From Streptomyces sp. NBC_01288 (GTDB lineage Bacteria > Actinomycetota > Actinomycetes > Streptomycetales > Streptomycetaceae): DNA of 64,000 nt. Location of the stretch: the NCBI RefSeq assembly GCF_035982055.1, contig NZ_CP108427.1:8431001-8495000 (forward strand). The letters are read 5' to 3'. Shown here one piece after another: positions 19,218 to 42,589 of this stretch. The translations under genes and the position numbers were made by a program. Positions within the stretch are counted from its first letter, which is position 1. The number at the start of each line of letters is the position of its first letter. The notes under the pieces are model-generated. The model saw only the letters and a program-made list of their open reading frames with translations, made no database searches and was not told the origin of the DNA.

Positions 19218-19240
19218 ACCTTACGGCCCGCCACTGACAG
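19218..19240 (-). promoter_or_regulatory. PafBC/RecA-NDp-type promoter before the RecB-like nuclease
   Basis: On the minus strand CTGTCAGTG matches eight of nine bases of TTGTCRGTG; after exactly eight bases comes TAAGGT, a full match to TANNNT. Only eight bases separate it from the ATG, so the transcript would be nearly leaderless, in keeping with the lack of a good ribosome-binding site. Confidence 0.6.
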
Positions 19241-35503: not shown

Positions 35504-36457
35504 ATGGCCATTGCCAAGGCCGAGCGGCTGATGAACCTCGCGCTGTGTCTGCTCGGGACACGGCGGCCGCTCAGCAAGCGTGAGCTGCGCGAATCCATCG
35601 AGGCCTATCTCGAAGCGGGCAGCGACGACTCCTTCAACCGGATGTTCGAGCGCGACAAGGACGATCTGCGCGAACTCGGCCTCGTCATCGAGACGGTGGA
35701 GAACCTGGACGGCGAGGTCGGCTATCTCGCCCGCCGCGACAGCAACCGCCTCCCGCCCATCACCCTCGACGCCGAGGAGGCCGCCGCGCTCGGTCTCGCC
35801 GCCAAGGTGTGGCAGCAGGCCCGGCTCGCCGGCGCCGCGAGCGGCGCGCTACAGAAGCTGCGCGCGGCCGGGATGCCCGAGGACCTCGACCCGTACGAGC
35901 CGCACGGCGCCCTGGAGCCGCGCATCCCGGTGCACGAGGCGTCGTTCGAGCCGCTGATGCTGGCCTGCCGCGACCGCCGGCCCGTCCTCTTCGACTACCG
36001 CAAGGCCACCGCCGCCCGCCCCGAACCCCGCAACGTCGAGCCGTGGGCGCTGGAGTGCTGGCGCGGCCACTGGTACCTCGCCGGCTGGGACCGGGACCGG
36101 GGCGCCGAGCGGGTCTTCCGGCTGTCCCGGATCACCGGCAAGGTGCGCTCGCGCAACGGGCGGTTCACCGCGGACATCCCCGACGTCGTCACCGTGCGCG
36201 AGACCGTCGCGAGCTGGGCGGGGGAGACCGCCGACCGCTCCGCGCTGATCCGGCTGCGCACGGGCTCCGGGTACCCCTTGCGGGCGAAAGCCGCGGCGGT
36301 TCGGGAACTCGCGGACGGCTGGGACGAGTTGGAGATTCCGTACGGCCACGGGCTGGACGCCTGGCTGGTGGAGTTCGGGCCCGACGTGGTCGTCCTGGAG
36401 CCCGCCGAGCTGCGGGCCGACGTGGTGGACCGGCTGCGCGCTGTGGCCAAGGGCTGA
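35504..36457 (+). CDS. pafB: WYL-domain transcription activator PafB
   Basis: The 317-residue protein has an N-terminal winged helix-turn-helix (KAERLMNLALCLLGTRRPLSKRELRESIEAY), a helical linker, and a WYL domain with PLMLACRDRRPVLFDYRKA and WALECWRGHWYLAGWDRDRGAERVFRLSRI. PafB works with PafC as a heteromeric activator of the DNA-damage response, recognising TTGTCRGTG-N8-TANNNT promoters, probably after binding single-stranded DNA with the WYL domains. It is followed 19 bases later by pafC, and possible target promoters lie within the same cluster. Confidence 0.93.
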   Translation: MAIAKAERLMNLALCLLGTRRPLSKRELRESIEAYLEAGSDDSFNRMFERDKDDLRELGLVIETVENLDGEVGYLARRDSNRLPPITLDAEEAAALGLAAKVWQQARLAGAASGALQKLRAAGMPEDLDPYEPHGALEPRIPVHEASFEPLMLACRDRRPVLFDYRKATAARPEPRNVEPWALECWRGHWYLAGWDRDRGAERVFRLSRITGKVRSRNGRFTADIPDVVTVRETVASWAGETADRSALIRLRTGSGYPLRAKAAAVRELADGWDELEIPYGHGLDAWLVEFGPDVVVLEPAELRADVVDRLRAVAKG

Positions 36458-36476
36458 GGGGGAGCGGAAGAGAACT

Positions 36477-37493
36477 GTGGCAGGCAAACCGGTCAGGCCC
36501 GTCAACGCCATCGACCAGACCCGGCGGATGCTCTCCCTGGTGACCTATCTGAAGGAGCGCCCCGGAGCACGTATCGAGGACGTCGCCCGTGCCTTCGGGA
36601 TCACCGAGGACGAGCTGGTCTCCGACCTCGACGTGCTGCCCATGTGCGGAACCAGCTTCCGGGGCGGCGACCTGCTCGACATCGACACCGACGGCGACCG
36701 CATCTGGTGGCACAACCCGGACGACGTCGCCGAACCGCTCCGGCTCGCCGCCGACGAGGCGACCGCCCTCCTGGTGGCCGCCCGCGCCGTGTCGACCCTC
36801 CCGGGCCTGCGCGAGAGCGACCGGCAGGCGCTGCTGCGGGCCAACGCCAAGGTGGAGGCGGCGGCCGGTGAGGCGGCCGGGGCCAGCGCACGCCTCTCGG
36901 TGACCTTCGAGTCCGAGGGCGGGGTCTTCGCGGACGTCGACCGCGCGATCTCGGAGCGCCGCCGCCTGTGGATCCGCTACTACTCGCCCGCCCGCGACGA
37001 GTTGAGCGAGCGGGAGATCGACCCCATCCGGCTGGTCAGCGTCGGGCACACGTACGTGGAGGCCTGGTGCCGGCGCTCCGAGGCGCGGCGCACCTTCCGC
37101 CTCGACCGGGTCGCCGAGATCAAGATCCTCGACGAGCCGTCCGCCCCGCCCGAGATTGAACTGCGGGATCTGTCGGAGGCGCTGGTCCAGCCCGCCGCCG
37201 AGGACCCCGAGGTCGTCGTCGAGGTCGGCCCGGGTGGGCGCTGGGTCGCCGAGTACTACCCGCACGACAGTGCCGATGAGCTTCCCGACGGCGGGCTGCG
37301 TATTACCTTGCGCACCCCCGACCCGACGTCCCTGAGACGCCTGGCCCTGCGGCTCGGGCGCGACGGCCGGATCGTCTCCCCGAGCGACCTCGCCGACAGC
37401 GCCCGCCGGGCCGCCCGCGAGGCGTTGGCCGCCTACGACGGTCCGCAGGGTGTTGCTGACGCGGTGCACGGTGTTGACGAGAGGCCGGAGTGA
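36477..37493 (+). CDS. pafC: WYL-domain transcription activator PafC
   Basis: The 338-residue partner of PafB starts at a GTG. Winged helix-turn-helix: TRRMLSLVTYLKERPGARIEDVARAFGITEDELVSDLDVL. WYL domain: ERRRLWIRYYSPARDELSEREIDPIRLV and YVEAWCRRSEARRTFRLDRVAEI. The C-terminal extension after the WYL domain is characteristic. PafB and PafC are separate proteins here, as in mycobacteria; some other actinobacteria have them fused. Confidence 0.93.
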   Translation: MAGKPVRPVNAIDQTRRMLSLVTYLKERPGARIEDVARAFGITEDELVSDLDVLPMCGTSFRGGDLLDIDTDGDRIWWHNPDDVAEPLRLAADEATALLVAARAVSTLPGLRESDRQALLRANAKVEAAAGEAAGASARLSVTFESEGGVFADVDRAISERRRLWIRYYSPARDELSEREIDPIRLVSVGHTYVEAWCRRSEARRTFRLDRVAEIKILDEPSAPPEIELRDLSEALVQPAAEDPEVVVEVGPGGRWVAEYYPHDSADELPDGGLRITLRTPDPTSLRRLALRLGRDGRIVSPSDLADSARRAAREALAAYDGPQGVADAVHGVDERPE

Positions 37494-38087: not shown

Positions 38088-38151
38088 GTCACATATGGGC
38101 GGGGTGTGAGTTGCGCGCCTCATGCGCTTCGCGTCACTTTGCCCTGTCACG

Positions 38152-38174
38152 TTGTCGGTGGAGGCGGGTACGCT
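38152..38174 (+). promoter_or_regulatory. Perfect PafBC/RecA-NDp promoter motif before tatA
   Basis: TTGTCGGTG, then exactly eight bases, then TACGCT: every defined position of TTGTCRGTG-N8-TANNNT is matched. The tatA start lies about 170 bases downstream. The rest of 38088-38346 contains no gene. Confidence 0.75.
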
Positions 38175-38289
38175 GCTGATCGCGGTCCGGATAACGAGGC
38201 CCGGAGCGCGGACCGGGAGTACGCACGGGGATTGCCTCACGTTTACCCCTGAGCGTTACGATCGCTGGCAGCACGAAGGTCGGACAGAT

Positions 38290-38305
38290 GTCCGATCGAT
38301 CGGAC
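38290..38305. promoter_or_regulatory. 16-base perfect palindrome before tatA
   Basis: GTCCGATCGATCGGAC is self-complementary. With the TCGGACA just upstream (38280) it forms direct copies 20 bases apart. It lies 42 bases before the tatA start, a position fit for an operator or an RNA hairpin. Confidence 0.4.
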
Positions 38306-38346
38306 AGCACCCCACCCCAGCCGCCTCGGTGAGAAGGTAAAGACTT

Positions 38347-38628
38347 ATGTTCGGAAGGCTCGGAGCACCCGAGATCATTCTCATCCTCGTCGTCATCGTG
38401 CTCCTGTTCGGCGCGAAGAAGCTTCCGGACATGGCCCGCTCGCTCGGCAAGTCCGCCCGCATCCTCAAGAGCGAAGCCAAGGCGATGAAGGAAGAGGGCA
38501 ACACCACGCCCACCCCCGCCGGCCCGCCGAACACCGACGAGTCCGTGCAGCGCACCATCCAGGCGGCCCCCGGCGACGTGACCAGTGCGCGTCCCGTCAC
38601 CGAGCCGTCGGACACGACCAAGCGCTGA
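38347..38628 (+). CDS. tatA: Twin-arginine translocase subunit TatA
   Basis: The 93-residue protein begins MFGRLGAPEIILILVVIVLLFGAKKLPDMARSLGKS: a short membrane helix, the FGAKKLP hinge and an amphipathic helix, which is the complete TatA signature. A disordered Pro/Thr tail follows. TatA multimers form the channel for folded proteins with twin-arginine signals. tatC follows after 48 bases. A GAGAAGG ribosome-binding site is present. Confidence 0.96.
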   Translation: MFGRLGAPEIILILVVIVLLFGAKKLPDMARSLGKSARILKSEAKAMKEEGNTTPTPAGPPNTDESVQRTIQAAPGDVTSARPVTEPSDTTKR

Positions 38629-38676: not shown

Positions 38677-39639
38677 TTGCCTAAGTCTGCCCGCACGAAG
38701 GAGAAGGACCCCGAGGGGCGGATGCCCCTCGCGGACCATCTGCGCGAGCTGCGCAACCGGCTCGCGAAGGCGATGCTCGCCATCATCGTGGTGACCTGCG
38801 TGGCCGCCTTCTTCTACAACGACATCGTCAACATCATCACCAAGCCGGTGTTGCACTCGGTCGGTTGCTCCCAGAACTTCGAGCAGTTGTCGAGGTCGTC
38901 GGCGAAGACCCAGCAGTGTGCGCAGATCACGATCAACGGTCTGCTGACGCCGTTCACGCTGGCGTTGAAGGTGTCCCTGATGGCCGGTGTCGTACTGGCC
39001 TCCCCGGTCTGGCTGTACCAGCTCTGGGGCTTTGTCGCGCCGGGCCTGCACAAGAACGAGAAGAAGTACGCGCTCTCCTTCGTCGGCACCGGCGTTCCGC
39101 TGTTCCTCGGCGGCGCCTACTTCGCCTACAAGGTGCTGCCCACCACGGCTAAGGTGCTGATCGGCTTCACGCCGAGCGGTGTCGACAACCTGCTGCCACT
39201 GGACGACCTGCTCGACCTGGTCACGCGCATGGTGCTGGTCTTCGGCCTCTCCTTCGAGCTGCCGCTGCTGCTGATCATGCTCAACCTCACGGGGGCGCTG
39301 ACCGGCAAGCGGATGCTCGGCTGGTGGCGCGCCATGATCCTCGGCATCACGGTCTTCGCGGCCGTCGCCACCCCCAGCACCGACCCGCTGACCATGCTGG
39401 CGCTGGCCGGGCCGATCTGGGTGCTGTACTTCGGCGCCGTCGTCTTCTCTCTGCTCAACGACCGGCGCAAGCGCCGCCGCGAGGCGGACGGACCGGACGA
39501 CGACGAGGCCTCGGACCTGGACCTGACCCCCGAGGACATCGGCGACATCGAAGCCGTCTCGGCCGGCCGGGCAGCTCTGCCCGAGCAGGCGAGCGGCACG
39601 GGTTCCGACCGGGTCAACGGGTATGACGACGTGACCTGA
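38677..39639 (+). CDS. tatC: Twin-arginine translocase subunit TatC
   Basis: The 320-residue protein starts at a TTG with AGGA before it. The N-terminal signature MPLADHLRELRNRLAKAMLAI is that of TatC. Six membrane segments follow, with SPVWLYQLWGFVAPGLHKNEKKYA between segments 2 and 3, where the receptor site for the RR motif lies. The C-terminal 60 residues form a long acidic cytoplasmic tail. With TatA (and TatB encoded elsewhere) it builds the Tat receptor. Confidence 0.96.
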   Translation: MPKSARTKEKDPEGRMPLADHLRELRNRLAKAMLAIIVVTCVAAFFYNDIVNIITKPVLHSVGCSQNFEQLSRSSAKTQQCAQITINGLLTPFTLALKVSLMAGVVLASPVWLYQLWGFVAPGLHKNEKKYALSFVGTGVPLFLGGAYFAYKVLPTTAKVLIGFTPSGVDNLLPLDDLLDLVTRMVLVFGLSFELPLLLIMLNLTGALTGKRMLGWWRAMILGITVFAAVATPSTDPLTMLALAGPIWVLYFGAVVFSLLNDRRKRRREADGPDDDEASDLDLTPEDIGDIEAVSAGRAALPEQASGTGSDRVNGYDDVT

Positions 39640-39736: not shown

Positions 39737-39759
39737 TTGTCAGTGGCGCCCGGTACGCT
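39737..39759 (+). promoter_or_regulatory. Perfect PafBC/RecA-NDp promoter motif before the helicase gene
   Basis: TTGTCAGTG, exactly eight bases, TACGCT: a full match to TTGTCRGTG-N8-TANNNT. The -10 ends ten bases before the helicase ATG at 39770, so the leader would be a few bases long. Confidence 0.8.
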
Positions 39760-39769
39760 CGAAAGCACG

Positions 39770-42589
39770 ATGACAGAGGACCTCTCCCCGGCCGAGCGGT
39801 ACGCGGCAGCCCGCCTGCGGGCAGCCGAGCAGGCCACCGCGCTCGCGGACTTCCGCGAGATGTACGACTTCGGTCTCGACCCCTTCCAGATCGAGGCCTG
39901 CCAGGCGCTCGAAGCGGGGAAGGGCGTGCTGGTCGCGGCGCCCACCGGCTCCGGCAAGACGATCGTCGGCGAGTTCGCCGTCCACCTCGCCCTCCAGCAG
40001 GGCAAGAAGTGCTTCTACACGACCCCGATCAAGGCACTGTCGAACCAGAAGTACGCCGACCTGTGCCGCCGTTACGGCGCGGACAAGGTCGGCCTGCTCA
40101 CGGGCGACAACAGCGTCAACTCCGAAGCCCCGGTGGTCGTGATGACCACCGAGGTGCTGCGCAACATGCTGTACGCGGGTTCGCAGACCCTCCTCGGCCT
40201 CGGCTATGTGGTCATGGACGAGGTGCACTACCTCTCCGACCGCTTCCGCGGCGCCGTATGGGAAGAGGTGATCATCCACCTCCCCGAGTCGGTGACCCTG
40301 GTCTCCCTGTCGGCGACCGTGTCGAACGCGGAGGAGTTCGGCGACTGGCTCGACACCGTCCGCGGTCACACCGAGGTGATCGTCTCCGAGCACCGGCCCG
40401 TGCCGCTGTTCCAGCACGTGCTCGCCGGGCGGCGGATGTACGACCTCTTCGAGGAGGGCGAGGGCAGCAAGAAGGCGGTCAACCCCGACCTCACGCGCCT
40501 GGCCCGCATGGAGGCGCAGCGCCCCTCGTACCAGGACCGCAAGCGCGGCCGTGCCATGCGCGAGGCCGACCGGGAGCGGGAGCGCAGATCGCGGTCACGG
40601 GTGTGGACACCGGGCCGCCCCGAGGTCATCGAGCGGCTGGACAACGAGGACCTGCTGCCCGCCATCACGTTCATCTTCAGCCGCGCCGCCTGCGAGGCCG
40701 CCGTACAGCAGTGTCTGTACGCCGGGCTGCGGCTCAACGACGACGAGGCACGGGAGAAGGTGCGGGCGCTCGTCGAGGAGCGCACGGCGTCCATCCCGAA
40801 CGAGGACCTGCATGTCCTCGGGTACTACGAGTGGCTGGAAGGCCTGGAGCGCGGCATCGCGGCCCACCACGCGGGCATGCTGCCGACGTTCAAGGAGGTC
40901 GTGGAGGAGCTGTTCCTGCGCGGGCTCGTGAAGGCCGTGTTCGCCACGGAGACACTGGCGCTCGGCATCAACATGCCCGCGCGCTCGGTGGTGTTGGAGA
41001 AGCTCGTCAAGTGGAACGGCGAGCAGCACGCCGACATCACCCCCGGCGAGTACACCCAGCTGACCGGCCGGGCCGGCCGTCGCGGCATCGATGTCGAGGG
41101 CCACGCCGTCGTGCTGTGGCAGCGCGGGATCAGCCCCGAGCACCTCGCCGGACTGGCCGGCACGCGCACGTATCCGCTGCGCTCCAGCTTCAAGCCGTCG
41201 TACAACATGGCGGTCAACCTCGTCGAGCAGTTCGGGCGGCACCGGTCGCGGGAGCTGCTGGAGACGTCCTTCGCGCAGTTCCAGGCCGACCGGTCGGTCG
41301 TCGGGATCTCGCGGCAGGTGCAGAGGAACGAGGAGGGTCTGGAGGGCTACAAGGACTCCATGACCTGCCACCTGGGCGACTTCGACGACTACATGCGGCT
41401 GCGCCGCGAGCTCAAGGACCGCGAGACCGAGCTGGCCCGGCAGGGCGTGGCACAGCGCCGTACTGAGGCCGCCGTGGCGCTGGAGAAGCTCAAGCCGGGT
41501 GACGTCATCCATGTCCCGACCGGCAAGTACGCCGGTCTGGCGCTGGTGTTGGACCCGGGACTGCCCGCCGGGCGGTCCAACGGGCATCGCGGATTCGAGC
41601 AGCACGACGGACCGCGTCCGCTGGTCCTGACCGTCGAGCGGCAGGTCAAGCGGCTCGCGTCGATGGACTTCCCCGTCCCCGTCGAGGCGTTGGAGCGGAT
41701 GCGGATCCCGAAGTCCTTCAACGCCCGTTCCCCGCAGTCCCGTCGGGACCTCGCCGCCGCGCTGCGCACCAAGGCCGGGCACATTCCGCCGGAGCGGGCC
41801 CGCAAGCAGCGCTCGCAGGCCGCGGACGACCGGGAGATCGCGCAGTTGCGTACGGCGATCCGGGCGCATCCGTGTCATGGGTGCAACGACCGTGAGGATC
41901 ACGCGCGTTGGGCCGAGCGGTATCACCGGCTGCAGCGGGACACCACGCAGTTGGAGCGGCGGATCGAGGGGCGGACGAACACGATCGCCCGGACCTTCGA
42001 CCGGATCGTCGCGCTGCTGACCGACCTTGACTATCTGCGGGGCAACGAGGTCACCGAGCACGGGAAGCGGCTGGCGCGGCTGTACGGCGAGCTTGATCTG
42101 CTGGCCAGTGAGTGTCTGCGGGAGGGGGTCTGGGAGGGGCTTGCTCCTGCCGAACTCGCCGCGTGTGTCTCGGCGTTGGTGTTCGAGGCGCGGGTCAGCG
42201 ACGACGCGACTGTTCCCAAGGTGCCGTCGGGTGCGGCCAAGGCCGCGCTCGGGGAGATGGTGCGGATCTGGGGGCGGCTCGACGCCCTTGAGGAGGACTT
42301 CCGGATCACTCAGACCGAGGGGGTCGGGCAGCGGGAGCCTGATCTTGGGTTTGCCTGGGCCGCGTATATGTGGGCCAGTGGGAAGGGGTTGGACGAGGTG
42401 CTTCGGGAGGTTGAGATGCCTGCCGGGGACTTTGTTCGGTGGTGTAAGCAGGTGATCGATGTGTTGGGGCAGATTTCTGCTGCGGCGCCGGTTACTGGCG
42501 GGGAGGCGTCATCTACCGTGGCCAAGAATGCGCGTAAGGCTGTGGAGTTGTTGCTGCGGGGGGTTGTGGCGTACTCGTCGGTGGGGTAG
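39770..42589 (+). CDS. helY: HelY-like Ski2-type DEAD/DEAH RNA/DNA helicase
   Basis: I take the ATG at 39770 (939 residues) since the upstream frame runs through the promoter. Walker A APTGSGKT is at 57-64, box DEVH at 150-153, motif III SLSATVSN, and the C-terminal helicase lobe has FATETLALGINMPARSVV and TGRAGRRGID. Ski2/DSHCT-like regions fill the C-terminus, including a CHGCNDREDHARW segment. Mycobacterial HelY has the same plan and also follows tatC. It is thought to unwind structured nucleic acid. The last 500 bases use more T-ending codons than the rest. Confidence 0.92.
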   Translation: MTEDLSPAERYAAARLRAAEQATALADFREMYDFGLDPFQIEACQALEAGKGVLVAAPTGSGKTIVGEFAVHLALQQGKKCFYTTPIKALSNQKYADLCRRYGADKVGLLTGDNSVNSEAPVVVMTTEVLRNMLYAGSQTLLGLGYVVMDEVHYLSDRFRGAVWEEVIIHLPESVTLVSLSATVSNAEEFGDWLDTVRGHTEVIVSEHRPVPLFQHVLAGRRMYDLFEEGEGSKKAVNPDLTRLARMEAQRPSYQDRKRGRAMREADRERERRSRSRVWTPGRPEVIERLDNEDLLPAITFIFSRAACEAAVQQCLYAGLRLNDDEAREKVRALVEERTASIPNEDLHVLGYYEWLEGLERGIAAHHAGMLPTFKEVVEELFLRGLVKAVFATETLALGINMPARSVVLEKLVKWNGEQHADITPGEYTQLTGRAGRRGIDVEGHAVVLWQRGISPEHLAGLAGTRTYPLRSSFKPSYNMAVNLVEQFGRHRSRELLETSFAQFQADRSVVGISRQVQRNEEGLEGYKDSMTCHLGDFDDYMRLRRELKDRETELARQGVAQRRTEAAVALEKLKPGDVIHVPTGKYAGLALVLDPGLPAGRSNGHRGFEQHDGPRPLVLTVERQVKRLASMDFPVPVEALERMRIPKSFNARSPQSRRDLAAALRTKAGHIPPERARKQRSQAADDREIAQLRTAIRAHPCHGCNDREDHARWAERYHRLQRDTTQLERRIEGRTNTIARTFDRIVALLTDLDYLRGNEVTEHGKRLARLYGELDLLASECLREGVWEGLAPAELAACVSALVFEARVSDDATVPKVPSGAAKAALGEMVRIWGRLDALEEDFRITQTEGVGQREPDLGFAWAAYMWASGKGLDEVLREVEMPAGDFVRWCKQVIDVLGQISAAAPVTGGEASSTVAKNARKAVELLLRGVVAYSSVG

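Follow-up and report, generated by a model that had tools for sequence, protein, structure and literature searches.

A PafBC-type motif ahead of tatA in Streptomyces sp. NBC_01288 lies within a conserved, probably housekeeping-type promoter followed by a candidate structured leader

Introduction

The RecA-NDp promoter motif, described in Streptomyces as well as in Mycobacterium (Ahel 2002; Gamulin 2004; both as cited in PMC5087735), was afterwards attributed to PafBC (PMC8223512). For the macrodomain gene SCO6735, a RecA-NDp promoter and induction by UV have been published (PMC5087735), and Stratton et al. (PMC9380542) remarked that, going by an initial search, the PafBC motif did not seem to be conserved in S. 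venezuelae. Promoters of the PafBC type and of the housekeeping type are both known kinds. The site considered here is located in front of the tatA-tatC genes in a 64,000-nucleotide stretch (hereinafter the window) of the DNA of Streptomyces sp. NBC_01288; a first-pass annotation had marked it as a perfect PafBC-type motif and raised the prospect of a Tat export system under a DNA-damage promoter. The features of the locus are listed in Table 1.

Table 1. Features of the pafBC-tat-helY region, with coordinates in the window
Feature	Position	Strand	Evidence
pafB	35504..36457	+	WYL and WCX domains; adjoins pafC
pafC	36477..37493	+	HTH_PafC 2.2e-30, WYL, WCX
P1 -35-like element CTGTCA, 19 nt ahead of the -10	38144..38149	+	CCTGTC 91-100% in 110 loci; no change in own clade
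TTGTCGGTG, G-form match to the PafBC "-26" half-site	38152..38160	+	Exact match; not conserved
P1 -10 element TACGCT, with GG in front	38169..38174	+	GGTA and final T 100% in 110 loci; in most of 165 loci
Predicted P1 start	38181	+	Inferred from -10 spacing; conserved hairpin begins at 38182
Hairpin H1, arms 38182-38189 and 38202-38209	38182..38209	+	Double changes at 6 of 8 pairs; 89.7% of cells paired
CGAGGC in the H1 loop, 5' partner of the long-range pairing	38195..38200	+	RNAalifold; 97.3% of cells paired; compensatory at 2 pairs
Putative promoter P2, TTGCCT 38232-38237 and TACGAT 38257-38262	38232..38262	+	Most positions 92-100% in 110 loci
Second leader hairpin TGTCCGA/TCGGACA	38289..38306	+	5 pairs changed on both sides vs 2.2 in shuffled; 0 of 500 shuffles reach this
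GCCTCG, 3' partner, 2 nt ahead of the Shine-Dalgarno GAGAAGG (38331-38337)	38323..38328	+	RNAalifold, covariation
tatA	38347..38628	+	Pfam TatA_B_E 3.5e-17; NCBIfam TatA equivalog above cut-off
tatC	38677..39639	+	Pfam TatC 1.6e-66
helY PafBC-type promoter (comparison site)	39737..39759	+	Perfect motif, conserved
helY-type DEAD-box/DSHCT helicase	39770..42589	+	Pfam DSHCT 6e-42, DEAD 1.4e-26

PafBC-type motifs in the genome and the genus

The perfect pattern TTGTCRGTG-N8-TANNNT occurs 48 times in the 10.56-Mb genome, and with one mismatch allowed the number of matches rises to 158, against 9 for a reversed-pattern control searched at the same tolerance. When the spacer of the G form was allowed to vary from 0 to 30 nt, five of the six genome matches had a spacer of 8. 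The perfect A form is present in all 26 sampled Streptomyces genomes, at 5 to 43 copies each, whereas the reversed control yields two matches in all over the same genomes. The control counts, the spacer-8 bias and the presence in 26 of 26 genomes rule out pure chance as the source of the motif class, which is far above chance in this Streptomyces. PafBC-type promoters are abundant in Streptomyces, and their motif in every sampled genome sits badly with the published remark on S. venezuelae.

The 46 other sites that were read include those ahead of recA, uvrA, uvrB, uvrD, radA, dnaX, rarA, ung, ruvC, an ogt-type methyltransferase gene and a macrodomain gene (all named from their sequences rather than by family search), and helY is likewise among the genes preceded by a perfect motif. 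Two of the four remaining G-form sites with a spacer of 8 are at plausible promoters, namely those of ruvC and of an MFS-like gene at 6 nt. Approximately half of the PafBC-type sites end 6-9 nt ahead of a likely start codon, a spacing that suggests leaderless damage-response messages. At the genome's other PafBC-type sites no separate -35 was seen, and the fourth T of the half-site is invariant. Elsewhere in the window, a near-perfect motif, CTGTCAGTGGCGGGCCGTAAGGT, was observed on the minus strand (19218-19240) just ahead of an ORF that, by eye, resembles a RecB-family exonuclease.

The motif at tatA coincides with promoter P1

The exact-pattern search of the window recovered TTGTCGGTGGAGGCGGGTACGCT at 38152-38174 on the plus strand, in the form TTGTCGGTG-N8-TACGCT; the expected number of occurrences of this pattern in the shuffled window is 0.00. 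The first-pass annotation had thus read the motif correctly, and its assignment to the PafBC/RecA-NDp type is shared here: the match to TTGTCRGTG-N8-TANNNT is exact, and both PafB and PafC are encoded just upstream (35504-37493, with WYL/WCX and HTH_PafC domains). The genome's other sites share with it a G at -30 and a G at -20. The distances that it had given as about 170 and 64 bases were measured as 172 nt between the 3' end of the motif and the tatA ATG (38347) and 63 nt between the stop of the small upstream ORF (38088) and the start of the motif. The tatA copy carries the minority G form and, with a matrix built from the genome's other sites, scores 24.3 bits, the fifth lowest value among the 48.

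In the alignment of 110 tatA upstream regions, GGTACGCT (38167-38174) is nearly invariant and CCTGTC (38143-38148) is retained in 91-100%, whereas TTGTCGGTG is among the most variable parts. Conservation shows the -10 and the -35-like elements of a predicted promoter, P1; the same pattern is found in most of the 165 loci when the sequences are inspected individually, and in a basal Streptomyces group another block takes the position of the -35. Since the -10 is conserved and the half-site variable, the TACGCT half of the motif is, judged by this pattern, the -10 of P1 itself, whose variable spacer is filled by the PafBC half. PafBC-type promoters, in which contact is made via the -26 element, have no separate -35, but at tatA the conserved CTGTCA occupies -37 to -32. 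The suggestion that transcription starts near 38181 is strongly backed by the conservation of P1, the start itself being predicted. Immediately upstream of P1 and extending into its -35, a conserved block, GTCACTTYGCCCTGTCA (38133-38149), contains two GTCA steps 12 nt apart and is possibly a regulator site. Farther downstream, the P2 block, for which a promoter role is putative, has a single genome copy with up to three mismatches allowed, which rules it out as a repeated regulator site.

The half-site is not conserved at tatA

When 392 Streptomyces genomes were scanned for the pattern, six matches were recovered, two of which are unrelated sequence, leaving the motif at tatA in four genomes; among the 110 relatives, it is intact in just a few close ones. 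The S. violaceoruber locus L060 is one of those without the half-site. By comparison, in 92 of the 94 loci (from the same 110 relatives) that reach helY, the helY motif is at a fixed place and matches at least 11 of the 12 positions. In the window, this helY motif (39737-39759) is perfect and stands 10 nt ahead of the helY ATG, 1.6 kb from the tatA motif. Two perfect matches this close had been regarded as hard to ascribe to chance; that the motif class exceeds chance is borne out, but the inference from the pair fails because the helY site is conserved almost throughout the genus and the tatA site is not.

Within the strain's own clade (nine genomes), the nine positions of the half-site have accumulated 4 changes (0.44 per site) and the third codon positions of tatC 0.54 changes per site; the P1 -35 is unchanged, and all nine genomes have an identical helY motif. 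By this nine-taxon parsimony test, which has low power, TTGTCGGTG at tatA appears to behave like an unconstrained stretch. The half-site is perfect in five of the nine and altered in four, with TTGTC unchanged throughout. Two further genomes (L157 and L158) that are poorly placed on the tree, and whose stretches cover tatC incompletely, have a perfect half-site with a differing spacer. Across the 110 aligned loci, T is found at the fourth position in 17%, and the A form is absent at tatA from all loci examined. Lack of conservation between species, named by the first-pass annotation as the outcome that would speak against its proposal, is accordingly what was observed, and the data do not support a DNA-damage promoter for Tat that is conserved and under selection, given the four genomes among 392, the position of the half-site in a spacer and its rate of change, which in the closest relatives is that of third codon positions.

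The same data bear on the narrower possibility that in this species group tatA-tatC is a true PafBC target, with PafBC activated by single-stranded DNA and RNA polymerase using TTGTCGGTG at P1 and raising Tat export after damage. The full motif with the correct spacing at a real promoter, the G residues at -30 and -20, the presence of pafB and pafC, the excess over chance of G-form sites with a spacer of 8 (five, that of ruvC included, vs one at all other spacers) and the perfect half-site in five of nine close relatives as well as in L157 and L158, where the spacer differs, would all fit such a target. Yet the half-site is altered in four genomes of the clade and the motif is all but missing from the rest of the genus, the A form is never found at tatA in the examined loci, a conserved -35 is present, unlike at real PafBC sites, and the distance of 172 nt departs from the proximity to the start codon that is typical of most real sites (6-9 nt in about half of them). 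In addition, a literature search found no published link between PafBC and tatA. Taken together, we consider this reading unlikely.

Outside the clade, the P1 spacer matches the half-site at a mean of 4.15 of 9 positions, compared with 2.69 when the motif is permuted (a value as high is obtained with 12 of 2520 permutations), and the resemblance peaks at the exact register (4.20 vs at most 3.06 at neighbouring registers), scores that are inflated by the shared ancestry of the sequences. Descent from a PafBC promoter that once served tatA, since lost by decay in most Streptomyces but surviving in a few lineages, would account for this weak genus-wide likeness and for TTGTCGG in several branches, but it is very unlikely, given that the fourth T, which never varies in real sites, is found in just 8% of the other lineages, that basal Streptomyces and other genera, by eye, have no such half-site, and that likeness among kindred sequences is overstated by their common descent.

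A structured leader between P1 and tatA

Conservation extends over most of the interval between P1 and tatA, and H1 begins one base past the predicted P1 start. Covariation shows both this hairpin and the predicted pairing of its loop beside the ribosome site. RNAalifold applied to 109 leaders yields the CGAGGC-GCCTCG pairing with an energy of -10.97, as opposed to -2.88 +/- 2.21 for column-shuffled alignments, 1 of 60 of which reaches the observed value. Among 55 diverse leaders, 93.0% of cells are paired (88.5% in shuffled alignments) and changes on both sides affect 8 pairs and 27 cells (3.5 and 6.4, respectively, in shuffled alignments); none of the 500 shuffles reaches any of the pairing measures, and versions of the structure slid along the alignment are 34-52% paired. 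Among the compensatory replacements, C-G has become U-A twice, once in a clade and independently in L211, and G-C has become A-U in L197. The folding energy of a single leader is unremarkable (z -0.77). An alternative, 5' version of the TCGGACA/TGTCCGA hairpin was dropped, having no covariation support.

A covariance model of the leader has a single strong match in the genome, at tatA, and further matches in 9 of 17 sampled genera of the family, a number of which are weak and incomplete; in 14 of the 20 loci from other genera tatA is located downstream, and in the other six it was not found. The strict loop/Shine-Dalgarno pattern has no match in 66 genomes of other genera. In these genera, GCGGCG or GCGGUG in the loop and CGCCGC or CACCGC ahead of the Shine-Dalgarno look pairable, with mixed results for the best duplexes. 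Rfam 15 contains no match to the leader up to an E value of 5. The leader, which combines covariation support with a consistent position upstream of one gene, appears to be undescribed in Rfam and in the limited open literature, and is a candidate structured leader.

Discussion

The explanation that we favour, with a probability of about 0.68, is that the motif lies within a conserved housekeeping-type promoter, P1, that the half-site is an unselected part of its variable spacer, and that the structured leader probably adjusts translation of tatA. The 23-mer would then be part of an ordinary conserved tatA promoter, CTGTCA-N19-TACGCT, and TTGTCGGTG would have arisen within that promoter's spacer in a few species, with no detectable selection holding it. 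P1 would yield a long tatA leader RNA from approximately 38181, in which, as the covariation shows, the H1 loop pairs directly beside the tatA Shine-Dalgarno and most likely adjusts translation; P2 would yield a shorter transcript that lacks the 5' hairpin.

In the strain itself, a biochemical response to PafBC may well occur, with a perfect site at what looks like a real promoter, and PafBC may add some damage induction over P1 in the strain's own clade; an effect on tatA of twofold or more in this clade is doubtful. A more far-reaching proposal, which we put forward tentatively and rate somewhat short of an even chance, is that the P1 leader of tatA is a new cis-regulatory RNA of Streptomycetaceae that sets Tat levels through the pairing of its 5' hairpin loop, operates on P1 transcripts only, is bypassed by P2 and, in this species group, is linked to DNA damage through the PafBC half-site. 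Under the favoured explanation, the tempting idea that protein export is tied to DNA damage is weak and can be set aside, and the case illustrates that even a perfect match to a motif may be deceptive if one half of it is the -10 of another promoter. For bacteria of industrial importance, a conserved leader on the Tat operon could, for its part, be a control point of secretion.

Among the known systems, P1 shares with housekeeping Streptomyces promoters of the sigma-HrdB type a -35-like CTGTCA and a -10 TACGCT that are kept through much of the genus; it differs in its spacer of 19 nt, which is longer than usual, and the likeness is one of sequence. With PafBC (RecA-NDp) promoters the locus has in common the pattern TTGTCRGTG-N8-TANNNT and a genome that encodes PafB and PafC and contains recA, uvrA, uvrB, ruvC and SCO6735-like macrodomain sites, whereas the tatA copy is of the rare G form, stands 172 nt away from tatA, shares its position with a conserved -35/-10 promoter and is itself not conserved. 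The leader resembles 5' leaders with loop-to-ribosome-site pairing in its conserved hairpin, its long-range pairing at the Shine-Dalgarno and its gene-specific position; unlike them, it matches no Rfam family.
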